From contig NC_052357.1 of assembly GCF_009727055.1 (NCBI RefSeq), positions 90,603,350 to 90,667,349 on the forward strand: a DNA stretch of 64,000 bases. Direction: 5' to 3'. The notes under the pieces are model-generated. The model searched no databases and was not told where the DNA came from. It was given only the letters and a program-made list of their open reading frames with translations. This DNA is from Benincasa hispida (lineage: Eukaryota; Streptophyta; Magnoliopsida; Cucurbitales; Cucurbitaceae). Both the position numbers and the translations under genes were made by a program. Below, piece by piece: positions 3,385 to 58,600 of the stretch (positions within the stretch are counted from its first letter, which is position 1; the number at the start of each line of letters is the position of its first letter).

Positions 3385-6300
3385 TACGAAAAATTTAAAT
3401 ATATTTTTTTTATTGTAAGGTATTTGTGGGGTATAGTTTGGTGAAGATTTTTATGCATGCATGGCTTGTTCCTCTAATTACCCTGTGTTTAAATGCTAAA
3501 TTATATATATATATATATTTTAAATGGAGAGGTTATTTTTTGCTATTTTATGTGATCAAAATCTATATATATATATATATATATAATGGAGAGATCATTT
3601 TTATTATTATTATTATTTTACGTGATCAACGTAGATTTAGTAAGATTTTCTAGTTGTTTTTAAAATAAAGTTCTCAAATAATAAGATTTCGTTTAATTTG
3701 GTAGTTTTTAATTTTAAATACACAAAAAAAATGTTGGGATTTAATAAAGGTATATTTGTCTTTTACTTGTATTTACCGTTTTTTTTTTTTTTTTTTTTTT
3801 TTGAAAAGGCTACCATGTTTTGGCCCTTTGTCCAAAGTATTCCTTTCTTAACTCATGTCTAGTTAAATTGCCTTTTTAAAAAACTAGAACATAACAGGTT
3901 TTGATGCACGTGAAATTAATAGTTTTATTTCAATACAATTGTTATCGATGTTTTTGTACCTTTTTCTCATTGTTTGACTTAAGTACTTATAACTATTTGA
4001 AAGAGAGGTAAAATAAAAGTTTATGAAAATTTGAAGAGAAAATGACATGATTGTCTGTTAAAACATATATCCACGTTAGATTGTAGTGTTTCATATTTAC
4101 AGCTAAAATCACACCCATTAAATTGTGATGTTTCACATATATAATCACACCCATTAATAGTATAACAATGGAAATGACGTGACTATTTATTCAAACAACA
4201 TTCACCATTAAATTGTGATTTTTCACATATATAATCTAAATTAAATTAATGCCACAAGAGAAATTTCTCTTCAAGAGTGGTCACCCTAACTTGAATAGTT
4301 GTAATGAAAAACAAAATAAGAATTACTAAAAGATGTAAAAACAAAATGGGGACGTAAAGACTCTCCCCTCATAAATATTCGAGCTAACTTATGAGCATCT
4401 CAACTAATTTTACAAGACACTTGGTCTAATTTTGCAACATTTAGGTGTCAAATTTTTTTTTATAAATCCTAAATACTGATCATCATGTATTGAATGCATT
4501 GATCTCTCTAAGATATTTATTATATACACAACTCTTGTTGACTATTAAATCACTTCATAATGATTATAAATATTTAAAAATATCCATTGCCATTCGAACC
4601 ACATATATTCTCTCACATTAGTTAGAAACGGAAAGGTCTTGTGTATATACATAAAAACAACACATTCATAAAAAGTCGATTTTCTAAGAACCTCATCACA
4701 AGAGAATTTGGAATCAAGGTTCACATGGACAAATTAAAAAGAAAAGAAAAAACAACAACAACAAAAGAAAAGGTTTCTAGAAATAATTGAGAGAAAAGAG
4801 AATTAGCTCATACCACATAAACTTGGACCACAAAACCAAGGAGCTATCCTTTAGGCCTCTCTAAACATTTTTCACATTTACCAAACCAAAGAGATAGCAA
4901 AAAGCCGCAACAAGCCTTGGAAAGGTATTCAAAAAGGGAAAAAAAAATTGTTTTTGAATAATTGAAAGGAGATGGACCCCTAAAAAGTAAAATCATTATC
5001 CCACTTTATTTTATCACATAAAAAAGGGGGGAAATTCATGTTCACACATACAATTTCTCAATATATAGTTGTATCTTTTATTTTATAGAACACTTTTTTA
5101 ATTATTTAAAACTAATTTTTATTAAATAAAAATTTATTTATAAGTGTGAAGTTAAATATTAAATTATTTTCAAATCATTAAAGATTTTAATAATTTCAAA
5201 ATCACGCACAAATATGTACTTAATATCCTTTAGCCTTGTATTTTCACAAAATCTTAAATTATTCCCTACTGCTCGTTTATTAATATTGATTTTTTTTTTC
5301 ATTTTTTTATAAAATATTAACTTCACTCTGTACGTTTTGAAACATATTCAAATATAATATTTTCTTACATGAAATTTATTATTAATATTTAATTAATTTC
5401 AGTTTTAAAAAAATTAATTTTGAAAAACTAAATTTAAGATTTATTGAAAATACTGAAATTAAAAAAGTCACTGAATGGTAAGTATCCCTAAAACGGACTA
5501 TGTAATGTAATTTATATGCCGGTTTACGAGTGGACATTTAGTCCACCGTGTAAACATTCATAAACTGCTCTGGCATAATTCTTAACGGATGATCTCAATT
5601 TTGAAAGATAAAATTTAAGATTTATTAAAAATACCAAAATTAAAATTTGACAATTGAAAGTACAATGATTGAATTCGAACCACCGCTAAATGATATTTTA
5701 ACCTACAAAATGAGAAAGAAAGAAACTTGATTATTTCTTCCTTTGGTAGTGGATATATGACTAGTCTTGGATAATGGAAAATTTGTGGCCCCTTGAATGT
5801 TTAAACAATTTCAACATGTGGGAAAATTAATATATGTACATTTTAATATCCCAAATCACTCTACTAGATGATTTGAATTTTATCAACTGTGAGTCATGAT
5901 TAATCATCTTTGTTTGTTTCTTCTTTCTTTTTTTTTTAATATATGAATTTGTTGAATCTTCAAAAAAATGAAAAACTTCGGAACAAATAATTCCAATAGA
6001 GGGAAGTTTTATTGCATCCTCATTCTCTCAAACTCTAATTTATTATGTTCTTGGAGCATCGATCGGTCAGAATCGATTTTCCGACTAAATCACCACCAAA
6101 TCGATTATGGTTGGTTTAGTAAATGTTCAACTCGATCTTGACCATCGAGAATTAAAAGACGGTTGTCGGTTTGGTTGATTTTATTCTTTAATTTTTTTTG
6201 TTTGAAATTTCCCATTTTAGAATTTTTCCAAACCAACCCATCTCCTTCTCCGACCAACCAACGTCGGTTTGGTCGTTCAGCTCAATTTTTCGGCCTTATC

Positions 6301-6870: not shown

Positions 6871-9800
6871 AATAGTATTTTAAGAAATGAAGATAATTAT
6901 TAAACCATGTCTAAATTGATTTTTTTGTTAAAATTCCAAATTATTAAATTACTTGTAAAACCATGGTTTTAGAATAGCCTAATTGTTTATTTAATGAATT
7001 GAATGTGCTAGTTTCGAAATAAATAAATAAATGTGTTCATTAATTCATTCAATTGAAAACTTTACTTTATCCAACTCAACTTTTTATTTTTTGGAATTAA
7101 TAATTCAATTCAGTTTAATGTTATAGGAAATAAATCCATTAAAAATATTATTATACAAATAACTAATTCTCATAAAAGTAGTATTTTTTTAATAAAAATT
7201 CATATGTCACCATCTTTTTAATCATGTTTTGAGAGAGTTGGAACAACTGGAAAATTAAAAAGAATTTATATTTTATTTTTTTAAAAAAATGTTGGTTGTT
7301 TTCCAGTTTCCAAGTGGGTGGTTGTGCTTTTGGATCTTGAAGATGCCCTTTTAATTCAATTTGTAACATTTTAATCCAAAGTCCAAATAATATATAATAT
7401 TATCACTCCATTCAAGTAAATATGAGAGTCATTTTTCTCCCTATAAACTTATAAAGAAAATGATATTAATTCTCACTCTAAACTTTTAGTTACCATTTTG
7501 TTTTCATTTATTCATCTAATTTTAAATATAACAAATGTGAAATGTTAGAGATTAAAAAAAAATGTAAATTAAATATTGTTGATTTGTGTTCATATGGGAG
7601 GATTATAAGTCCGTTTGGGATTGCTTTTGAAATACTAAAAATTTATTTTAGGAGAATCTTAATTACTGCTATTTTGGTAAAACAACTTATTTATTAATCT
7701 ATCTAAAATCACTTTTAAGCTTTTAGATTTTAGTTTTCCTAAACATTTGGTATCTTTCCTTCATCTCAAATTTTCATTTCATTAATTTATTTTCTCACAT
7801 TTATTCCAAATTTTAATTAGTTCAGATTCTTATAACAATTATTTTTTTAAAAAAATTATTTCATAATTTTTTTTAATTAAACAAAAATGGTTGCAATTCA
7901 AATCATATATATTTTCAAATAGTTGTATAACTAAATTACATTAATTTACCGAATACCTTAACAAGGTTTTTTCTAATTTAAAATTAAAATTTACCAAATA
8001 CTTGTTTACTTCTATCCCCAACCGATTTTTCTAGAACCAACCGTTATTTTAAAAGCTAGATTACCAAACGAAGTCTATGTGAAGATAATTGTTAATATCA
8101 CTCAACTTTTTTTTTTTCCTTTTGAAGATTGACATCGCTAAATTTGATACGTATATTTAATTTTGAATATGTTTGGATTGACTTTTTAAGTGCTTAAAAA
8201 CTTTTTTGTTTATAAACACTTTTTAAAGCACTTAAGAAATCATTGTATAACACTTTAAATTTAGGTAAACGTTTGCAATCAATGCCTTAAATTCAAATAA
8301 GTACTCTAATTTTACTTTTTAATATAAATTTTAAGAAGAATCATTATATATATTTGCAATTATTTATAAAGTATATATGTTTTGTGCAAATTTGATAATA
8401 TTTTAAAGTACAGACATTAGAGCTAAAAAAAGAAAAACATAATGAGGTTTAATCGAGCTATTCAATGATTGATTCCGTAAACAATCAAGCTTAGATTATT
8501 TTTTTTTTCGAAATGGAAAAGAAAAGAAAAGAAAAGAATAAAGAACTATTGTGGGAATAAAAAAATTGAGTAGAAGGTAAAAAAAAAAAAATTATAATAT
8601 TTAATTAAGTCAATAATTCAACTTAAGTCTGTTTGATAGGCAATCGGAGAACAAAATCTTGAAAATAATGAATTTAAATAAATTAAAGTTGTATAAGTTT
8701 TCAATATGTGATGGGTATTAAATTCCAATATAAACAATTTTACAAAACATGTTTAAAAATATATTTATAAGCTATAAAACTAAATATACTTATCCAATAA
8801 ATACTAGGTTTATTATAAACTATTATTAATGTTAAAAAAAATTGGGTAATTATATTATTTTGTAATATCATATATCATATAATACATAATATATTATATA
8901 CTTTAATTTAAAAAAATAATTAAATTTACAACATGAAATATTATATTTATTATCGTTTTTATCCATTTTAATATAATTCTACATTTTAAAATTTTGAATT
9001 CAAATAATAAAAAAAATTATTTTTAGAATTGATACGGTTTGATCACATAATTCAAAAATAATTTGAAAATTAAGACATCTCGATGTGGTAAAGTTTATGG
9101 TAAATTTTATTTAACTTTATTTTCCAATTTTATTATATTAAGATTTTGTTTTTGTAGGGAGGTGACATGCAATCTCGACCCAAGTTTTATGACCACTGGA
9201 TTTGCTTTTCTTTTCATCTTTTTGAAGAAATGACAACTCGATTTTTATTATATTACGATTCTAATTCTAAAGAGACAGTTTTATAAATTAATCCTAAATG
9301 CATTGTATCCATATTTTACTTGTAACATCAATTTCAATGACATTTTTAAATTAAATTAAATTTCTTTTTATATAATTATGAAACAGACAACTTCTATTTA
9401 AATTACAACGGTTTCGATAAGTTGTATGTTTATAAATATAATTATAGGAGATTTTTAAAAATAGAAAATTAAGAAAAATTATTTACATAAAATAGTAAAA
9501 TTTTAATATTTTTATAATCTAATAAAAGTTAATCATGAATAAAAATTAATATAAATCTATCACCGATAAACGTCGATAGAAGTCTATCGTTGTCTATTAG
9601 TGCTTTTTTTTTTTTTGTTATTTTTGTAAATGGTTTGACAATTTTTCTATTTATAAAAATTTTCATATAATTGTCCCTCAACTCTATTCTAACTTAATTA
9701 ATTAAGATATTCAAATCTTTTGTCAAGATCCCATGTAGTAACTGCTTTGTCTTTTAGTTTTTTTTTTTAAAAAAACTTAAGCATATAGGTATTACTCACA

Positions 9801-15060: not shown

Positions 15061-15427
15061 TGAAGGATCTCTTAACGAAGAGTTCCATGAGCGCATTTGG
15101 ATCGCTCCAATTTCACAACACCAGATATATTCAAATGCAAAGTTATGCAAACATACAGTAATTAACGGCATGCTTTGAACAAGAAATAACAAGGGAGAGA
15201 GTTCTCATACCAGTTGAAGACAGTCTTCAAACTTTGGAACTCAACGCAGCGGATGACCTCTACCCGATCAACCAACGGCCAACAGATGCGTCGACTATAG
15301 CAGCACGAAAAATAGCAACAACACAAATGCAGCGGGGACGACACCACCAGAAAAGAGCCCCAGGTATTCTCAGAGTGAGAATCCAAAGTGTGGTTGTTGG
15401 TGAGTTTAATAGAGGCAGGAGGAAGAA

Positions 15428-15685
15428 TTGATCGTGTAGGCGATTAGCAAGTGTGAAGGAATATGAAGCTATCGTATAGCAAGATGCTTATCGCTTAGAA
15501 GAAACTACACGATCGTGTAGATTTTACTGAACGATCGTTTAGAAAACAGAAGGTGATCGTTTAGCAAACACGACACACTATACGATCGTTTAGGAAAACT
15601 AACTGATCGTTTAGAACTTAGTGTGCGATCATTTAGGCACTGAGCGACTATCGTATAGGCTCTCGATTTTAAACGATCGAATACA
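15428..15685. repeat. Array of ~10 CGATCG-centred motifs in the LTR
   Basis: Variants of 'acgatcgtttag', 'gatcgtgtag' and 'atcgtatagg' recur every 15-35 bp. The core CGATCG is palindromic. Equivalent arrays occur in the 5' LTR (about 39230-39475), reversed in the solo LTR (about 18135-18425), and in shorter form in the related LTR at about 63595-63715. Conservation in position within LTRs suggests a promoter or enhancer component, which is inference. Confidence 0.8.
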
Positions 15686-16687
15686 TTTTCACACCAACAC
15701 GCTCCTCCGATCTCTTTCCGGACGAACCAAACAAATCAAAATGAAACAAATTTCACTTTTATTCATTGGTTACAAAAACTAATGGTGTTCCCACAAACAC
15801 ACGTCCGAACGTGGTTTTGGGTTAATTATCATATAATTAACCAATTAAAATATTAATAAATATAATCATATTATATTTTAAACCTATAGTTTGATATCAC
15901 ATATTTACTATAGTAATTTCTTCTCTACTTGATATAAATCATATTATATCTAATTTCCTCCAAAATAATGTATCTCATACATTTAGCCAATTATAGCAAA
16001 TATAATTAACTAGTCCAATTATATCATATATAATCGAACTTCCTCTTGTCAATTTGAACATTTCAAATTGACCCAAACATTGATTATCGACTTTATCCAA
16101 GCTACCCAGGGGACCTAATGGACCTGTGACTCGAAGCTCCAATGGTCCGTGAATAGCTGACTAAACTCTTTAGCCACGAGATTCACCATCTGTTAACTGT
16201 CAGGCATTCCATTAAAGACCAACAGCTGAACTCTTCTTACCACAGATATATTTCTGTGTCCATCGAATATAACGAATCATGAGTACGATGACCCTTCACA
16301 GATGCTCGTAAGTACAACTGAGCCAAATTACCGTTTTGCCCCTGTAGTTACATCCCGCTCCTTAAGTACCACTGATTCCTCTAATGAACAATACAACATA
16401 GTCCAACTATGTATGAACACCTCTCGGACCAAGAGAAGGTGTGTGGTGCCACATCGTTCAAGTCCCGGTATCAGCCCTTAAGGGAGCTATCTGTCTACTT
16501 ACCCCTGCCTTGGGGAAGAAGTGAATTCCATCTTGTGTAGCTGAGTTCCCAACTCCCAAATCAGACAAATCCCAAAATGGGTAGGTTTGAATCGGCGACC
16601 TGGCCACTCGCACCCATATAAATCAAAGGACCGCCCTCAATGGCAGGAGTTCCCAACTCACTCAGGATTGAGGTCATGTTACCTATG

Positions 16688-18810
16688 TGTTGAGGTTGAT
16701 GCCCTAAAGTCTCGTGTCCTGTAGTTTGTAAACAGTATGTACGAACACTTGTGTTGTTAACATATGATATTTACTTCACATCTTGTATTTTGCTGATTTA
16801 CTTGTTTTATTTGCTTTACCACAAACCAATAAACACAAAATCCCTGGTTGTATGTATGAGACTCAAACATGTATGTGATGACATACAAGTAAATCAGTCT
16901 TGAGTGATAACCAAAATGGTCTGTTGTATATGGATAAAGGAGGGAAATCTTATCCTGGTAACGCTACGGACGTGGCCCGCTTTGTGGAATGGTCACAAAT
17001 GTTGTGACTTATCACAGATGGTCTGATCCTGATCCTTCGTGTTGAGGACATGCGAGCGGGAGCGTTCTATACAAAGAGTTTGTATAAGACCTGACCACGA
17101 ATTGTTAACGTCTCGTTATATAACACCGTTCATCATTTCACTAGGATGACCATAGGTAACATGACCTCAATCTTGAGTGAGTTGGGAACTTCTGCCATTG
17201 AGGGCGATCATTTGATTTGTATGGTTGCGAGTGGCCAGTTTGCCGATTCAAGCCTACCATTTTGGGGATTCTCTGATTTGGGAGCTAGGAACTCAGCTAA
17301 ACAAGATGAAATTCACTTCTTCCCCGAGGTAGGGGCAAGTAGATAGATGGCTCATTTAAGGGCTGATTCCGGGACTTGAATGATGTGGCACCACGCACCT
17401 TCTCTTGGCTTGAGAGGTGTTCACACATAGTTGGACTATGTTGTATTGTTCATTACAGGAATCAGTGGTACTTAAGGAGTGAGATGTAACTACAGGAGCA
17501 CAACGGTAATTTGGCCCAGTTGTACTTACGAGCATCTGTGAAAGGTCATCGTACTCATGATTGGTCATATCCGATGGAAACAGAAATATATCTGTGATAA
17601 AAAGAGTTCAGCTGTTGGTCTTTAGTGGAATGCTTGACAGTTAACGGATAGTGGATCTCTTGGCTAAAGAGTTTAGTCAGCTATTCACGTACCGTTGAAT
17701 CTTCGAGCCACAGGTCCATTAAGTCCCTTAGGTAGCTTGGATAAAGTCGAGAACTAGTATTTGGGTTAATTTGAAAATTTCAAATTAACAAGAGGAAATT
17801 CGATTATATATGATATAATTGGACTAGTTAATTATATATGGTATACTTGGCTAAATATATGAGATACATTATTTTGGAGGAAATTAGATATAAATATGAT
17901 TTATATTAAGTAGAGGAGAAAATACTATAGTAGATATGTGATATCAAACTATAGGATAAAAATATAATATGATTATATTTATTAATTAATTAGCCGGTTA
18001 ATTATAAAATAATTATGCTAAAGTTTCACGTTCGGACGTGGGTTAATGGGCAACATCGGTTATTGTAACTGATGAGTTAAAATGAAAATAGTTTTCATTT
18101 TTGCATCGTCGGTGATTCGCCCAAAAAGATTTCGTGAAGCGCGTGTAGGTGAAAGAAAACGATCGCTCGAGAGCCTATACGATAGTTGCTTCTCCGTCTA
18201 AACGATCGTCCATCTCGTGCTAAACGATCGCACACTTTCGCTTACATGATCGGATAGCTTCTCTAAACGATCGTCTAGTGTGTCGATTTAACTAAACGAT
18301 CGTATACCTTTTTCTAAACGATCATTCAGTAAATACTACACGTTCGTGTAGCTCCTCCTAAACGATAAGCATTTCTGCTATGCGATAGCGACTTCTTCCC
18401 TCCCACTTGCTTATCGACTACACGATTCGTGTTTCCTCCTTCCTCTACCAAATTCACCAAAGCCCACCCTTTGGGTTTTCACTCCAAGAATACCCGGGGC
18501 TCATAAGTGGTGGTGTTATCCCCATTGTGGTCGTGAGTTCGCATTGTTCATGCTGCTGCAGTCGACATTTTCTACCGGGCGTTGGTAGAACACTTGGAGG
18601 GTTCCGTTGCATTGGAGTTCTGTAGTGTGAAAATTGTCTTCAACTGGTATGGAACTCTGTCCCTTTGTTATATTGTTGTTCGTAGCATGCCGTTAATTAG
18701 AGATTATTTGCATAACTGTATGTGTTGAATGTATAATGTTATATTTCGGTAATGGTGAGATCGGAGTGATCTGAACGCGCTCATGGAACTCATCGATATG
18801 AGATCCTTCA
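16688..18810 (+). mobile_element. Solo LTR of the same Copia family, opposite orientation
   Basis: It begins TGTTGAGGTTGATGCCC and ends GATCCTTCA, the two ends of this family's LTR read in the plus direction. It is 2123 bp, essentially the length of the 5' LTR (2116 bp). It is flanked by CTATG at 16683-16687 and 18811-18815, and the host LTR continues in register on both sides. No primer site or internal sequence is present, so it arose by LTR-LTR recombination after insertion. Short open frames here (for example near 17146-17346) are not genes. Confidence 0.93.
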
Positions 18811-19292
18811 CTATGGTCATTCTAGTAAAGTGAATTCTCTGTCTTGAATGGTGTTATATAATGAGACGTTAACATTTCGTGGTCAGATCTTATACAAACT
18901 CTTTGTATAGGACACCCCCGCTCGCATGTCCCCAACACGAATGATCAGGATCAGATCATCTGTGACAAGTTACAACACTTGTGACCATTCCACAAAGCGG
19001 GCCGCATCCGTAGCATTACCAGGATAAGGTTTCCCTCCTATATCCATATACTACAGACCATTTTGGTTATCACTCAAGACATGATCCACTTGTATGTCAC
19101 CACATACACGCTTGAGTTACATACAGATAACTAGGGATTTTATGTTTATTGGTTTGTGGTAAAGAAAATAAAACATGCAACTGAGCAAAAACAAGATATG
19201 AAGTAAAATATTATATATTATACAACACAAACGTTCGTACAAACTGTTTACAAACTACAGGATACGAGACTTTAGGGCATCAACCCCAATAA

Positions 19293-19330
19293 CTGTCTCT
19301 TATACACATCTAGATGTGTATAAGAGACAG
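19293..19330. other. Tn5 mosaic-end dimer (sequencing-library artefact)
   Basis: CTGTCTCTTATACACATCT (19293-19311) is followed immediately by its perfect reverse complement (19312-19330). This 19-bp mosaic end is the transposase recognition sequence placed in Nextera-type library adapters. A head-to-head pair with no spacer is typical of adapter dimers trapped between fragments. It replaces the expected 3' end of the Copia internal region. Confidence 0.97.
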
Positions 19331-19457
19331 GATCTGTGTGACGATCACGTCCCTTCGATGCACTATCTCGCGAATTAGATGATACTTCCGCTTTATGTGT
19401 TTGTCGCGCCTGTAACTCCCCGGCTCCTTGGAGTTCGCCACAGCACCACTATTGTTC
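19331..19457 (-). other. Second, diverged copy of Copia RNase H 3' end between adapters
   Basis: The minus strand encodes the tail of Copia RNase H (NSGAVANSKEP ... HLIREIVHRRDVIVTQI) and overlaps the fragment at 19496-19612 almost completely. The two copies differ at several bases, for example in the codons after 'NSKEP', so they probably come from different genomic copies of the family. It is bounded on both sides by Tn5 mosaic-end dimers, which points to a mis-joined assembly rather than a biological duplication. Confidence 0.9.
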
Positions 19458-19495
19458 CTGTCTCTTATACACATCTAGATGTGTATAAGAGACAG
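19458..19495. other. Second Tn5 mosaic-end dimer (sequencing-library artefact)
   Basis: The same 38-bp palindrome as at 19293-19330 occurs here: mosaic end at 19458-19476 and its reverse complement at 19477-19495. Its conceptual translation contains VSYTHLDVYKRQ in reading frames on both strands because the sequence is its own reverse complement. That peptide is a known signature of adapter read-through in predicted proteins. Confidence 0.97.
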
Positions 19496-19634
19496 CGTCC
19501 CTTCGATGCACTATCTCGCGAATTAGATGATACTTCCGCTTTATGTGTTTGTCGCGCCTGTCACTCCGCGGCTCCTTGGAGTTCGCCACTGCCCCACTAT
19601 TATCACAATAGAGGGTAATGAGCCTAGACATATC
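19496..19634 (-). pseudogene. Copia RNase H, C-terminal end (displaced exon of pol)
   Basis: The minus-strand translation reads DMSRLITLYCDNSGAVANS and continues to HLIREIVHRRD, the conserved end of Copia RNase H. The catalytic aspartate of the YCDN motif is visible. It should join directly to the fragment ending LRKFLIELEVV at 21323 and is separated from it by a 1.7-kb solo LTR. The last residues (VIVT and beyond) are cut off by adapter sequence at 19495. Confidence 0.85.
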
Positions 19635-21322
19635 TGATAACGGGTAGAAATGCACGTTATTACAGCTCAAAGTCATAAAACAATGTAGGATTGCGATGAT
19701 AAAAATATACAATATTGCGTCCAAAAGTATTAAGTTCACAACATTTCGATCGCATGCATCCATCGCATTAAAACAACTAATTTATGTATTTTTGTGCAGA
19801 AAATGCGTTGACGCAAGGCGGAAATGCGATCCAAAGAAATTAACGTCCGAGTGCATTAAGAGATTACATTGACGCAAGGCTATGCGACCATTTACGCTCG
19901 CGAATATCTACTCAAGAAGGTTGCCACATAGAACCGGTGCATCATGGTTGGCGCATCTGGGTGAAAAGCGTAATAAATCACGATGGGACAGAAAGCTGAT
20001 GACGGTCGATTCTGAATTAAGTTGACAAGCCGTTAACGATCTACTGTAGCAAGTACACTCAACTTTTTGGTGATAAATATTCGGCGCATCAGACAGAGAA
20101 TTAATGTCATCTCATCAGGGAATTCATAAGAGAGAAGAAGCCTTTCACCCTGAAGCTTTATAAATACCGAAGGCCACCTTCAGTGAAGGAGTTTGCTAGT
20201 TTTTAGAGTTCACTATTTAGACGATACTTAGCCTTGTTCTTAGTTTCTGATACTTAGAAGGCGGAGTGAGAGAAGGGAAGAGATGCTGGAAGATTGCCCT
20301 GGTTAGCTCGAGAGAATGTCAGGGAGCCTGGAAAAATAGAGAGAGGGTTGACTCTTGCGAGAGCAAGAATAACTTTTTAGCAAGTAGAGAAGAACAATGT
20401 AAAAGCCTTGGGAAGCAAGAAATTTCTACCAGGCTCTTTATTCTTATTCCACATTGTCATTCTGTATTTTAATTATATATTTATAAAATGGAACTTGCTT
20501 ATCTACATCTGTTCACTCTATTTAAAACACACATGAGTAGCTAAATCTATTGAATGGGTTGAGATGTACTTAGCTAACATGACCTAGGATTTTCATCGCA
20601 TGCGATCATCTTGTCTTATGTTGCGTCCATCACCCCTTTAGAGCTACTCGAGAGAGAGTCTAAAGAAAGAACCTAAGACTTGAGAGAGCTAGGTTAGAAT
20701 CTAGACTCGAGAGAGCAAGATTAGATCTGCATAAGAGATAAAGACTTAGAGATAAGCTCTGTTTGTCAACATGCATCGCAAGCATCCTAGAGATAGGCTA
20801 TGGTATTATGCGGTCACCTTGTATGTGTGTGTGTCAATCATCATCGCATAGACAAGAATAGAGGCTTATGTGTAAGTCCTATAGACATCATCACATATAT
20901 CGCATGCGTTTTAAAACTAGAAGCCGTAGCATTTGCGTTGAGAGATGATTTTCTATTGTATGTGTGTAGCATGATCGCATAACATGAACGCAATCCTAGG
21001 ATGTGTTAGCTAAACCTCTTCTCAACCCGTTCCCCTGTATATTCATCGCATCTTTCGTAATATTAACTCTGTTCTTAACTCCGCCGCATACATTTTATAC
21101 TGTAAACAACAAACCAACCAACTCTTTGATTTATTGTTACCGCAAAGTGATCTAAAAATTACCACCGCATATTGTTTTTCTTAGTCCCTGAGTTTGACCC
21201 TGGGCTTACCAGGCAACTCAATAGGGTTTATACTTGGATCTTACTGAGAAAACTTGCATGTTCAACGCACTTTCCATCAGCGCAATCCCTACCATTATTT
21301 CATCGCATAAAATAACGCATCA
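19635..21322 (+). mobile_element. Gypsy-type solo LTR inserted in Copia RNase H
   Basis: The insert starts TGATAACGGG and ends ACGCATCA. It has a TATA box (TATAAATA at 20159-20166) and, near the 3' end, the phrase 'gtccctgagtttgaccctgg', which is related to the end of the other Gypsy LTRs in this window ('gtccctgtgttcgacctcgg'). It interrupts RNase H between LEVV and the residues before LITLYCDN. No internal coding sequence is present. I could not find a clean 5-bp target duplication (left ATATC, right AACAA), so the exact ends are uncertain by a few bases. Confidence 0.75.
20159..20166 (+). promoter_or_regulatory. TATA box of the solo LTR
   Basis: TATAAATA followed by CC, about 525 bp from the LTR start, is the same TATAAATACC context as in the solo LTR at 28545. 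It is the likely core promoter of this LTR family. Activity today is unknown. Confidence 0.6.
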
Positions 21323-22926
21323 AACAACTTCCAGTTCTATCAAGAACTTCCTGAGCCAGACACCCTTCTTAGTAGCTTCGCAAGCCGCTACGTACTTCGC
21401 CTCCATAGTGAAGTCGGCGATGCACCCCTGTTTAGTGCTTCGCCACACTACAGCTCCTTCGTTAAGAGTAAAGACTGACCCTGATGTAGACTTGCGAGAA
21501 TCCTTATCAGTTCGAAAGTCAGAATCTGTGTATCTTATAAGGATCAAATCCCTAGAGCCATACACAAGCATGTAGTCCCTCATTCTCCGAAGATACTTGA
21601 GGATGTTCTTCACTGCGGTCCAGTGACCCTGGCCTAGGTTAAAATGATACCTATTGACTATGCCTATTGCGTAGCAGATGTCTGGACGAGTACAGAGCAT
21701 TGCATACATCAAACTGCCAACGGTAGATGCATATGGCACTTGCCTCATCTCCTCAACCTCTTGAGGTGTCTTAGGACACATGTCTTTAGACAAAGTGACT
21801 CCATGCATGAACGACAGTAGACCCCTCTTGGAGTCCTGTATCGAGTACTCGAGCAACATCTTGTCAATGTACATGCTTGAGACAGTGCTAGCACTTTGTT
21901 CTTACGATCCCGAAAAATCTGTATACCTAGAACATATTGAGTCTCTCACAAATCTTTCATTTGGTATTAGGTCACTAGCCAGTTCTTAACTGCAGTTAGT
22001 AGACCTACATCATTCCCAATGAGTAGTATATCGTCTACATACAACACTAAGAAGACTATTGAAGCGTTGATGATCTTTTTGTAGACACAAGGTTGATCAA
22101 CGTTTTCGTCAAAGCCATACGACTTGATCGCAATATCAAACTGTATGTTCCAAGATCGAGACGTTTGTCTCAGTCCATAAATGGACCGATTCAGTTTGCA
22201 AACTTTTTGCTCTTGACCTTGGGCTATGAATCCCTAGGGTTGTACCATGTAAATGGTCTCCTCAAGATTGCCATTCAGAAAGGCCGTCTTGACGTCCATT
22301 TGCCAGATCTCATAATTATAATAAGCTGCAATGGACAGGAGGATGCAAATCGACTTTAACATGGCAACAAATGAGAAAGTCTCCTCATAGTCGACTCCTT
22401 CTACCTGGGTATAACCCTTTGCCACAAGTCGAGCCTTGAAGGTCTGTACCTTCCCTCAGCACCCCCGTTGTGTTTATAGATCCCATTGACAATCTCTTAG
22501 TGCTCTTACCATCATCAGGTCCTGATTCTACAAGATCCATTACTGAATGAAAGTACATCGAACTACCATGTCGAGATCCATAGGCCTAATGACCATTCAT
22601 CTCGGTCACATCATCCTCTGTGCCTTCCGATAAGACAATGGACTCGTCAATGCTCGGCCATTTACTACCATAGCCAGGATTTCCTTGAAACCCAGATACG
22701 AATGGGTGGTTCTAACCTTCCCACTACGTCGAGGTTCGCCCTAAACTCTTGAAGGTAACAGACTACTAGATGAAACTCCCATCCTAACAACTCTTGTTTG
22801 AAGTTTCAGTAGCTTCATTTGGAAAGGCTCATTACAAACATGACTTGCTTCGGACTGTGCTCCCTTATATGATCCTCCTCCAGGAAAGTAATGTTTGTTG
22901 AAACAAACACCTGATTTTCATCTAAT
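21323..22926 (-). pseudogene. Copia reverse transcriptase and RNase H (broken)
   Basis: Reading leftward on the minus strand: an RT block with [22 protein letters not shown] sequence and [17 protein letters not shown] (about 22425-22234), the catalytic LYVDDILLIGND motif at about 22055-22010, and an open stretch of 184 codons (21874-21320) with PYASTVGSLMYAMLCTRPD, the RNase H YTDSDF motif and TMEAKYVAACEA, ending at LRKFLIELEVV. Both polymerase aspartate motifs survive, but frameshifts and stops separate the blocks. In TMEAKYVAA, lysine stands where I expect glutamate from the family. From 22450 to 22926, between integrase and RT, the frame is disrupted. The enzyme copied element RNA into DNA. 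It cannot be made from this copy. Confidence 0.9.
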
Positions 22927-38845: not shown

Positions 38846-40961
38846 TGAAGGATCTTTTAACGAAGAGTTCCATGAGCGCGTTCAGATCGCTCTAATTTCA
38901 CAGTGACCGAAATACACTAGATACATTCAAACACACAGTTATGCAAACATACAGTAATTAACGACATGCTTTGAACAAGAAATAACAAGGGAAAGAGTTC
39001 TCATACAAGTTGAAGACGGTCTTCAAACTTTGGAACTCAACGCAGCGGATGACCTCTACCCGATCAACCAACGCCTAGTAGATGCGTCGACTACATCAGC
39101 ACGAACAACCGCAACAACACGAACGTAGCGAGGACGACACCACCAGAAAAGAGCCCCAGGTATTCTCAGAGTGAGAACCCAAAGCGTGGTCTTTGGTAAG
39201 TTTGGTAGAGGTAAGAGGAAGAACTGATGGTGTAGGCGATAAGCAAGTGGGAGGGAATATGAAGCTATCATATAGCAAGATGTTTATCGCTTAGGAGAAA
39301 CTACACGATCGTGTAGATTTTACCGAACAATCGTTTAAAAAACAGAAAGTGATCGTTTAGCAAACACGATACACTATACGATCGTTTAGGAAAGCTAACC
39401 GATCGTTTAGACCTTAGTGTGCAATCGTTTAGGCGCTGAGTGACTATCGTATAAGCTTTCGATATTAAACGATCGAATACGTTTTTACACCAACGCACTC
39501 CTTCGATCTTTTGTCGGATGAACCGAACAAATCAAAATGAAACAAATTTCATTTTTATTCATCGGTTACAATAACCGACACTGTTCCCACTAACACACGT
39601 CCGAACGTGATGTTGGGTTAATTATATATAATTAACCAATTAAAATATTAATAAATATAATCATATTATATTTTTAACCTATAGTTTGATATCACATATC
39701 TACTATAGTAATTTCTCCTCTACTTGATATAAATCATATTTACATCTAATTTTCTCCAAAATAATGTATCTAATACATTAGATACATTTAATCAATTATA
39801 TCATATGTGATTAACTAGTCCAATTATATCTATATAATCGAACTTCCTCTTGTCAATTTGGACATTTCAAATTAACCCAAACACTGATTCTCGACTTTAT
39901 CCAAGCTACCTAGGGGACCTAATGGACCTGTGGCTCGAAGCTCCAACGGTTCGTGAATAGCTGACTAAACTCTTTACCACGAGATTCACCATCCGTAACT
40001 ATCGAACATTTCACTAAAGACCAACAACTGAACTCTTCTTACCACAGATATATTTATGTGTCCATCGGATATAACCAATCATGAGTATGATGACCCTTCA
40101 TAGATGCTCGTAAGTATAGCTGGGCCAAATTACCGTTTTTTCCCTGTAATTACATCTCACTCCTTAAGTACCACTGATTCCTCTAATGAACAATACTACA
40201 TAGTCCAACTATGTGTGAACACCTCTCGGGCCAAGAGAAGGTGTGTGGTGCCACATCGTTCAAGTCCCAAAATCAGCCTGGGAGCTATCTATCTACTTAC
40301 CCCTGCCTCGGGAAAGGAGTGAATTCCATCTTGTGTAGCTGAGTTCCCAGCTCTCAAATTAGGCGAATCCCCAAAATGGTAGGTTTGAATTGGCAACCTA
40401 GCCACTTGCACCTATACAAATCAAATGACCGCCCTCAATGTCAGGAGTTCCTAACTCACTCAGGATTGAGGTCATGTTACCTATGGTCATCCTAGTGAAG
40501 TGAAGTCTCTGTCATGAGCGGTGTTATATAACGAGACGTTAACACTTCGTGGTCAAGTCTTATACAAACTCTTTGTATAGGATGCCCTTGCTCGTATGTT
40601 CCCAACACGAATGATTAGGATCAGACCATTTATGACAAGTCACACACACTTGTGACCATTCCACAGCGGGCCGCATCCGTAGCGTTACCAGGATAAGGTT
40701 TACCTTCTATATCCATATACTACAGACTATTTTGGTTATCACTCAAGATATGATCCATTTGTATGTCACCACATACATGCTTGAGTTACATACAGATAAC
40801 CAGGGATTTTATGTTTATTAGTTTGTGGTAAAGCAAATAAAATATGCAATTGAGAAAAAAACAAGATGTGAAGTAAAATATCATATATTATACAACAAAA
40901 GCATTCGTACAAACTGTTTACAAACTACAAGACACGAGACTTTAGGGCATCAACCCCAATA
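38846..40961 (-). repeat. 5' LTR of the Copia element
   Basis: It is uninterrupted and 2116 bp, with ends (minus strand) TATTGGGGTTGATG at 40961 and GATCCTTCA at 38846. The first dinucleotide has drifted from TG to TA. In the plus-oriented solo LTR the same end reads TGTTGAGGTTG. It carries the CGATCG array at about 39230-39475. The outside flank is TAATT at 40962-40966. Confidence 0.93.
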
Positions 40962-55623: not shown

Positions 55624-55697
55624 ACATTTTATGGAGTTCTTGTGCTCCACAAAGAGAAATACCACAAAATTGGATAAAGATATCCAAAGAGTGAGAC

Positions 55698-58600
55698 ATG
55701 AAATATTTTTCAAAAAAGCCCAAGATCATATTGGTTCCTTATCCGGCTCAAGGTCATGTCACTCCTATGCTAATGCTTGCAGCTGTCTTTTATCGTCGTG
55801 ATTTTCTTCCTATCCTTCTCACTCCTAATTATATTCATCGTCATATTTCATCGCAAATTTCGTCTACAGATGAAATTCTCTTCATTTCCATGCCAGATGG
55901 CCTCGACGATAACATGCCACGTGACTTCTTCACTATTGAGACTGCTATGGAGACCATCATGCCAATCTACCTTAGACGAGTTTTGAGCGAGCACAGTTCT
56001 AAAGAAAACAACGATGGTAGTGGAGTTGTTTGTATGGTGGTTGACTTACTTGCTTCTTCCGCCATTGAAGTAGGAAAAGAGTTTGGAGTAACCGTGGTCG
56101 GGTTTTGGCCAGCCATGTTTGCCACCTATAAATTAATTTCAAATATTCCTGAAATGATTCACAATAACTTCATTTCTTCTGATACAGGTTAATAATTTTC
56201 TTTCTTTCATTTTCTTTTTCAAATTAAGTTTTGATGGAAAAAATATATACTCATGGTTTAGGCATCAAAGGTTCTTAATACAATATTCTTATTATACATT
56301 AAAAATAACCCTAATTTTGTAGTCAACCATATTCTTCTCCATTTTTTAGATGATAATTACTTTAATCATTGTACACTTACATCTCTCCTTCTAAAAAACT
56401 AGCTCTTAGATTTAATTTTTAAATAAAAAATTACGAGAAATACTTTATTTACTTAAAAGTTTTGAAAGTTTCATTTCCATTCTATTCTAAACATGTGTCA
56501 ATGAGGATGAGACATTTTTAATTCAAATTCAATGTGAAAAAATATATTATATAAGTTGATGTGACAAATGATATCTTAAATTTTAAAAAAATAAAAATTA
56601 AAAGAAATAATTCTCTGATCAACACAAGCATCTTTCTATATAACTTCAAAATTTTTAGTTCTAAACTATGGTTCACAATTAAAATATAATACTTCTTTTT
56701 ACTTTTTAGTGGAAAAATCAAATTTATAACTTCAAAATTAAGATATAATTGCATTTAAAAAATATATATAATTGAAACCATATGGATTTATTAAATTATT
56801 TTATATAATTATGAAAAGAAAAATAGTTAGGCGCATTTCGAGTGCACCTATATTTATGCATCCTATCAAATTATCCAATCATTACTTGACATGTAGTAAA
56901 TGAACTTTACTTCTTTTATAAAATATTTTAATCATTTTTTTTATATGATAAAAGTGAGATGCATAGAGATGAATGTATTTTACTTTTAAAGAAATGTTTC
57001 AGAATGATTACGAAGTAATTAAAGTAATTTTAAAATCACATCATAACATGATTTTAATAATCTAAAATCACTTTTAACATGTAGCATGAAGATTAATGTT
57101 TCATGATTAGAGAGGAGTTTTCTAAAAATCACCTCATCCTAATTAAGAAGATGAGTGACAGGATGTCCAGAAGAAGGATCAAAAGGGTGCGTTCCGAGCC
57201 AGCCGCTGGTGTCGGCGGAAGAACTGCCGTGGCTGATCGGAACATCGTCGGCAAGAAAAGGCAGATTCAAATTCTGGAAAAGAACCATGGCTCGAGCGAA
57301 ATCCCTAAAATGCCTTCTCGTTAATTCCTTCCCAGAAGAGGTCCCCCTTCAAAAACCCATATCCAAAAGCTCAACCGCCGTGTTCCTGGTCGGACCTCTG
57401 AGCCGGCACTCGAATCCGGCGAAAACGCCAAGCTTCTGGGAAGAAGACGGGGGGTGTGTGGAGTGGCTGGAGAAACAGAGGTTGAATTCGGTGGTGTACA
57501 TCTCGTTTGGGAGTTGGGTTAGCCCAATCAACGAATCGAAAGTGAGGAGCTTGGCTATGGCGCTTTTGGCCTTAAGGAAACCATTCCTTTGGGTTCTCAA
57601 AAGCAATTGGCGAGACGGTTTACCAATCGGATTCCAACAAAAGGTACCGCTACCGGTTTATTATAATCCCAGTTCCTTCAATTTTAGTCCTCTAATCTTT
57701 TAAATGTCCAATTTCAGTGCTACAATTTCAATAAATGTGTTTTTTCTTTTAGAAAAATATTTTTTTTGTCAATACATTTTGAGTTTAAGTTAGGTTCCGT
57801 ATGATTTCTTAATTTTAAAATATTTTTATTTTAGACATAGTTTAATAATTTCTTTTTTTAAATTAAGTTTTTTCTTCTCCATTTTTTACCATGATTTATA
57901 TATTCTTTTAAATACAATGATTGAATTTTTAGCTAAATTTTAGAAACAAAAACAAATTTTTTAATGGGTACTTTTTTTAATTTTCAAATTTTGACTTTGT
58001 TTTTTAAACCATAGCTAAAAGGTAGATATCAAAAAAAAAAAAAAAAAAATTGATAGTGGAACTAGTATCTATAGGTTTAAATTTCAAAAGCAAAAACTCA
58101 AAAACCAAATTGTTACCAAACGAGCCTTAGTTATTAAGTTCTAATTTTGGTTTCAATTTGATCTTTAATTCCAAAATATTATACTCTGAGTCATTTTAAG
58201 TTTCTTTTTTTTTTTTTCAATTCAGTTCCTGATTTTAAAGATTTATACTTTTAACTTTGGGTTTTCACTATATACTCACTTTTATTTTGACTTTAATATC
58301 TATTAATTAATTTATAATAATTATGAACTCAAAATTTAAAATTAATTTTAATATTGATAGAAAAATAGTGAATTTTAGTTACTTATAATTATTTAATTCT
58401 TTTAAATTAATTAAAAGACATCAACTCTAATAATTGAAAGTGAGTATTTGGTGAAAATTTGAGATTAAAAGTATAAATCTCAAAATCTAGAGACTAAATT
58501 GAAACAAAATTCAAACCTCAAGCATCAAATTGTTACATTTTGAAACCTATGGACTAAATTGAAATCAAGCTTAAAAAATTTTTCATTTTTGAAAATTAAA

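Follow-up and report, generated by a model that had tools for sequence, protein, structure and literature searches.

The mosaic end, a hybrid of the Tn5 outside and inside ends, is a laboratory sequence. Two 19-bp mosaic ends abutting head to head make a 38-mer that we take to be the junction adapter of Nextera mate-pair libraries. The protocol for such libraries, as outlined in PMC6298255, consists of tagmentation with biotinylated junction adapters, strand-displacement fill-in and trimming of the junctions with NxTrim, and a plant example is described in PMC5053417; the passages of these two papers do not carry the letters of the 38-mer. In ordinary Nextera reads, according to PMC11575248, a tail follows the mosaic end. 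The exact 38 letters are quoted in a passage of PMC7357533 as a biotin-labelled ring adapter for the circularisation of fragments of about 4 kb, where it was ligated to DNA sheared by ultrasound, without tagmentation. This paper was the sole match when 5.39 million open papers were searched for the 38 letters.

We analyzed a stretch of 64,000 nucleotides of contig NC_052357.1 of Benincasa hispida (the window). A preliminary description of it, made from the letters alone, had reported two perfect 38-bp palindromes of head-to-head mosaic ends, 127 bp apart, and the window sequence bears this out in every detail. The two palindromes lie at 19293-19330 and 19458-19495 (no strand assigned), are identical and self-complementary, and match exactly the ring adapter of PMC7357533. 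Each is formed by two mosaic ends with no spacer, in the order CTGTCTCTTATACACATCT then AGATGTGTATAAGAGACAG, so placed that the genomic sides of both ends face outward. All four mosaic ends have 0 mismatches, and no mosaic-end match with three or fewer mismatches appeared in 100 dinucleotide-preserving shuffles. The window holds 12 perfect palindromes of at least 18 bp, and the other 10 are AT-rich and no longer than 24 bp. It contains no N. We hold it highly probable that the palindromes are circularisation junctions of a mate-pair library left untrimmed, and that the 203 bp they delimit are a patch made from such reads at a break within a copia retrotransposon.

The same letters could stem from another Tn5-based method, either ordinary tagmentation or whole-genome amplification with Tn5 ahead of sequencing, in which two end-filled mosaic-end fragments had been ligated, since blunt ligation of two filled ends gives an identical sequence. 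We consider this improbable. Ordinary Nextera fragments have tails past the mosaic end (PMC11575248), whereas not one 12-mer of either Nextera tail was found in the window, and PMC7357533 documents the use of the 38-mer for circularisation. The joint without spacer, together with the lack of tail 12-mers, points to a designed mate-pair circularisation product and not to a chance dimer of ordinary tagmentation adapters. The preliminary description was right to place adapter sequence in a plant consensus, although untrimmed mate-pair junction is a more apt name for it than tagmentation adapter dimer. TruSeq, SMRTbell, 454 and Cre-lox adapters or linkers gave no convincing match in the window: single SMRTbell 12-mers occur near 4742, 4745 and 62099, and a palindromic 12-mer of the 454 linker, TTTGAATTCAAA, near 8977, all of them in AT-rich DNA.

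A real plant element of the Tn5 type, a miniature transposon with inverted repeats or transferred vector DNA bearing these ends would also explain a pair of palindromes, as mosaic ends derive from the ends of a real transposon, and the site lies in DNA rich in retrotransposons. Yet each of the four ends is the laboratory hybrid without a single mismatch, the window has no 12-mer from the inside end of natural Tn5, and 12-mers of the Tn5 outside end match just at the four mosaic-end sites. The longest complete stop-to-stop open reading frame lying wholly within the window encodes 255 amino acids, less than the Tn5 transposase, and is a copia gag. The 9-bp target duplication is absent, since just 2 of 9 positions agree at one site and 4 of 9 at the other, and the 38-mer has no match among 20,395 E. 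coli records. As natural ends, a reading frame large enough for the transposase and a target duplication are all lacking, a real transposon was rejected, and we give this reading next to no probability.

The DNA around the site is that of a plant. Pfam matches to a copia gag, an integrase core and a UDP-glycosyltransferase were found in the window; the named relatives of the last come from Euphorbia, Brassica and Heracleum, and for the copia piece melon alone is named in the 120 entries listed out of 827 relatives. That the 38-mers truly stand in the plant chromosome, for example as laboratory or vector DNA with mosaic ends integrated into a copia element, is extremely improbable.

The palindromes sit inside a copia retrotransposon on the minus strand, and their flanks are repeat sequence. 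The identification as copia is given by protein relatives and tblastn rather than by Pfam, which returned nothing for the two 42-residue copia pieces or for the reading frames at 21320-21901 and 55695-56192. Between the junctions lies a 127-bp fragment of copia RNase H (19331-19457, minus strand; translation NNSGAVANSKEP...REIVHRRDVIVTQI), which five copia relatives, of which four bear the name of melon, match at 75-80%. On the right side of the second junction, tblastn with the same five relatives finds another RNase H piece at 19497-19655 (minus strand) with 67-85% identity, and an upstream RNase H piece occupies 21323-21841 (minus strand), about 1.7 kb from 19655. In tblastn the melon protein P0188 matches in the order 21841-21323 (its residues 1-133), 19655-19491 (residues 128-182) and 19456-19337, the last two matches overlapping within the protein; the four further relatives, three of them from melon, follow a similar pattern. 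Elsewhere in the window, for instance past the LTR-type copy at 40481-40961, tblastn did not detect the RNase H piece again. The RNase H is itself split by about 1.7 kb of other sequence at 19656-21322, perhaps a nested insertion.

The overlap in the protein corresponds to a direct duplication in the DNA that was absent from the preliminary description. It extends across the second palindrome, with a first copy of 106 bp at 19348-19453 and a second at 19496-19601 (both minus strand), the latter starting at the first base past the second junction; the copies are 96% identical, with 4 mismatches and 0 gaps. As they differ at 4 of 106 positions, they are not the uncollapsed overlap of one identical sequence. 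The starts of the copies are 148 bp apart, that is 110 + 38, the distance expected if a single tiny circle of some 110 bp had been read round more than once and had thereby given rise to both the second palindrome and the duplication. Such a circle is disfavoured by the 17 bases of in-frame copia sequence between the first junction and the start of copy 1, by the four mismatches and by the divergence beyond the copies, and we regard it as very improbable.

Copia relatives continue past the place at which copy 1 abuts the first junction by a median of 35 amino acids, with a range of 1-42 that reflects the fragmentary state of many of them (motif found in 81 of the 120 relatives listed), so that the tail of RNase H is missing here. 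Its place, between RNase H and the LTR, is taken by the first junction. The repeat that ends at this junction (18811-19292, minus strand) has a 91% identical copy at 40481-40961 and an inverted copy of 87% at 16690-17155, and we presume it to be the LTR from its position and letters. A long LTR-type repeat is present three times in two segments that differ in order or orientation (15061-16687 with 16690-17155, 17001-18810 with 18811-19292, and 38846-40644 with 40481-40961). Inverted repeats of about 160 bp were noted at 17001-17155 and 18811-18976, and short CTAAACGATC-like repeats, several of them spaced at 22 bases, cluster within the LTR-type repeat at 18198-18367. The triple repeat (15061-19292 and 38846-40961) may reflect a rearrangement of repeats, a segment capable of inversion or additional misassembly.

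We looked for the same 38-mer in other sequence collections. An exact scan of prokaryote genomes gave at least 120 stretches, with at least 19 organism names in the titles of the matches, from cyanobacteria to enterococci and streptomycetes. Drafts make up most of these matches, but three contigs are titled chromosomes (CP051244.1, CP017948.1 and NZ_CP051236.1). Seven stretches with the 38-mer were found on six viral contigs of IMG/VR and none in 50,697 phage records. It was present in 5 of 72,556 plasmid records (NZ_KY978628.1, NZ_CP032357.1, NZ_MT039157.1, NZ_MF589339.1 and NZ_MF918372.1), at 14 places, the palindrome matching on both strands; these five records probably hold the same artefact. 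Such a scatter across assemblies would be accounted for better by carry-over from libraries than by a mobile element found in nature. Among the 19 organism names, a mate-pair library is confirmed for one, Scytonema tolypothrichoides VB-61278, and is of 3 kb according to PMC4384490. Literature searches on plants or cucurbits sequenced with such a library, on contaminated assemblies, and on five contaminated species and three strains led to PMC5053417 and, by way of PMC6595405, to PMC4384490.

The flanks of the 38-mer in these assemblies resemble those in the window. The 127 loci fetched, which include the seven viral-contig stretches, contain 154 dimers, and 17 of the loci have more than one; where dimers follow one another in a locus, 13 of the 27 intervals that separate them are shorter than 130 bp. 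After removal of 11 dimers with a flank below 100 bp and 13 with an N within 20 bp, 130 usable sites were left. At 36 of the 130 a 20-mer next to the joint is found again on the opposite side within 600 bp. The sites fetched are not independent, as many come from few assemblies and above all from two of Enterococcus. For random positions in the same loci the mean recurrence was 0.43 of 147.6, with a maximum of 2 in 100 rounds. The recurring 20-mer was free of adapter pieces in 35 of the 36 cases and included one in the remaining case, and at 17 sites the two sides overlap cleanly over 20 to 158 bp. Sequence next to the adapter is thus often doubtful too. The relation of dimers to gaps was also inspected: 30 of the 154 lie near runs of N, against a random mean of 20.4 and a maximum of 28 in 200 trials. 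This is only a slight excess, so that the link to closed gaps is weak in these loci. For seven of the 154 the distance to a locus edge is no more than 50 bp, and each of the seven is also that close to the true end of a contig.

The preliminary description had further predicted that proteins called at this place would carry a contaminant peptide. One frame of the palindrome indeed translates into VSYTHLDVYKRQ, which occurs in 4 of the 7 stop-to-stop reading frames of at least 25 amino acids over 19293-19495. The 79-residue reading frame at 19379-19618 was compared with 5.8 billion proteins, and 209 of 377 candidates had E values of 10 or less. The peptide VSYTHLDVYKRQ is present in all 120 listed of these 209 matches, in part a result of selection since candidates are picked by shared short words; 33 of the 120 have Pfam domains, 15 contain two copies and just 16 reach an E value of 0.001 or less. 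This count is evidence that proteins with the peptide are frequent; it does not mean that a protein taken at random would have it. The peptide-bearing proteins listed come nearly all from short ENA contigs, a point in favour of the other Tn5-based preparations discussed above. A search of the same 5.39 million open papers for the peptide SYTHLDVYKRQ returned zero papers.

The simplest account of the site starts from mate-pair reads. In such a preparation a mosaic end is put on both ends of each long fragment, and after fill-in the fragment is closed by ligation to a circle, whose joint reads as two head-to-head mosaic ends with the genomic sides outward, as in the window. Reads crossing such junctions would have been used without trimming. 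The assembly would have broken at the edge of the LTR, between it and the RNase H end of the copia element, where an assembler or gap closer would have built the 203-bp patch at 19293-19495 out of a junction, 127 bp of copia sequence and a second junction. The copia sequence of the patch would stem from another copy or allele of the element, leaving a second RNase H stretch, 4% different from the first, and no true tail. The gap-closing step and the use of a mate-pair library for this plant are what we infer; the adapter and its geometry, the copia sequence duplicated and missing beside it, and the same 38-mer with similarly duplicated flanks in unrelated assemblies are what we observe. These observations comprise four marks of a mate-pair adapter left in an assembly, namely the exact letters, an outward geometry with neither spacer nor tails, recurrence elsewhere and the flanks of a faulty join.

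The feature is most likely an assembly artefact and not a biological one, at a place that is difficult to assemble because of a repeated mobile element. Because copia sequence is both duplicated and missing at its flanks, the patch probably hides a false join, which the pair of palindromes would mark, rather than being merely an insert; the sequence beside the 38-mers is very likely misassembled as well. The value of the finding is for quality control only: 19293-19495 should be masked, the surrounding join treated with suspicion and protein predictions that include VSYTHLDVYKRQ removed. The 38-mer or its peptide can serve as a cheap screen for assemblies made from untrimmed mate-pair reads.

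Compared with other systems, the window shares the exact 38-mer with the assemblies of Enterococcus sp. 10A9_DIV0425, Ideonella sp. MAG2 and Scytonema tolypothrichoides VB-61278. The duplication of the flank across the joint, seen at the prokaryote sites counted above, has the same anatomy at the second site of the window. The host is prokaryotic or viral in those assemblies and contigs, whereas here it is a plant retrotransposon. Tn5, or IS50, is the parent of the mosaic ends of the window in the form of a laboratory hybrid, but its natural inside end, a reading frame of transposase size and the 9-bp target duplication are all missing here. The Nextera mate-pair junction adapter shares its letters with the 38-mer of the window, and the protocol described in PMC6298255 would give such a head-to-head joint. 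That adapter is meant to be trimmed from reads, whereas the window carries two in its consensus, one on each side of a copia fragment.
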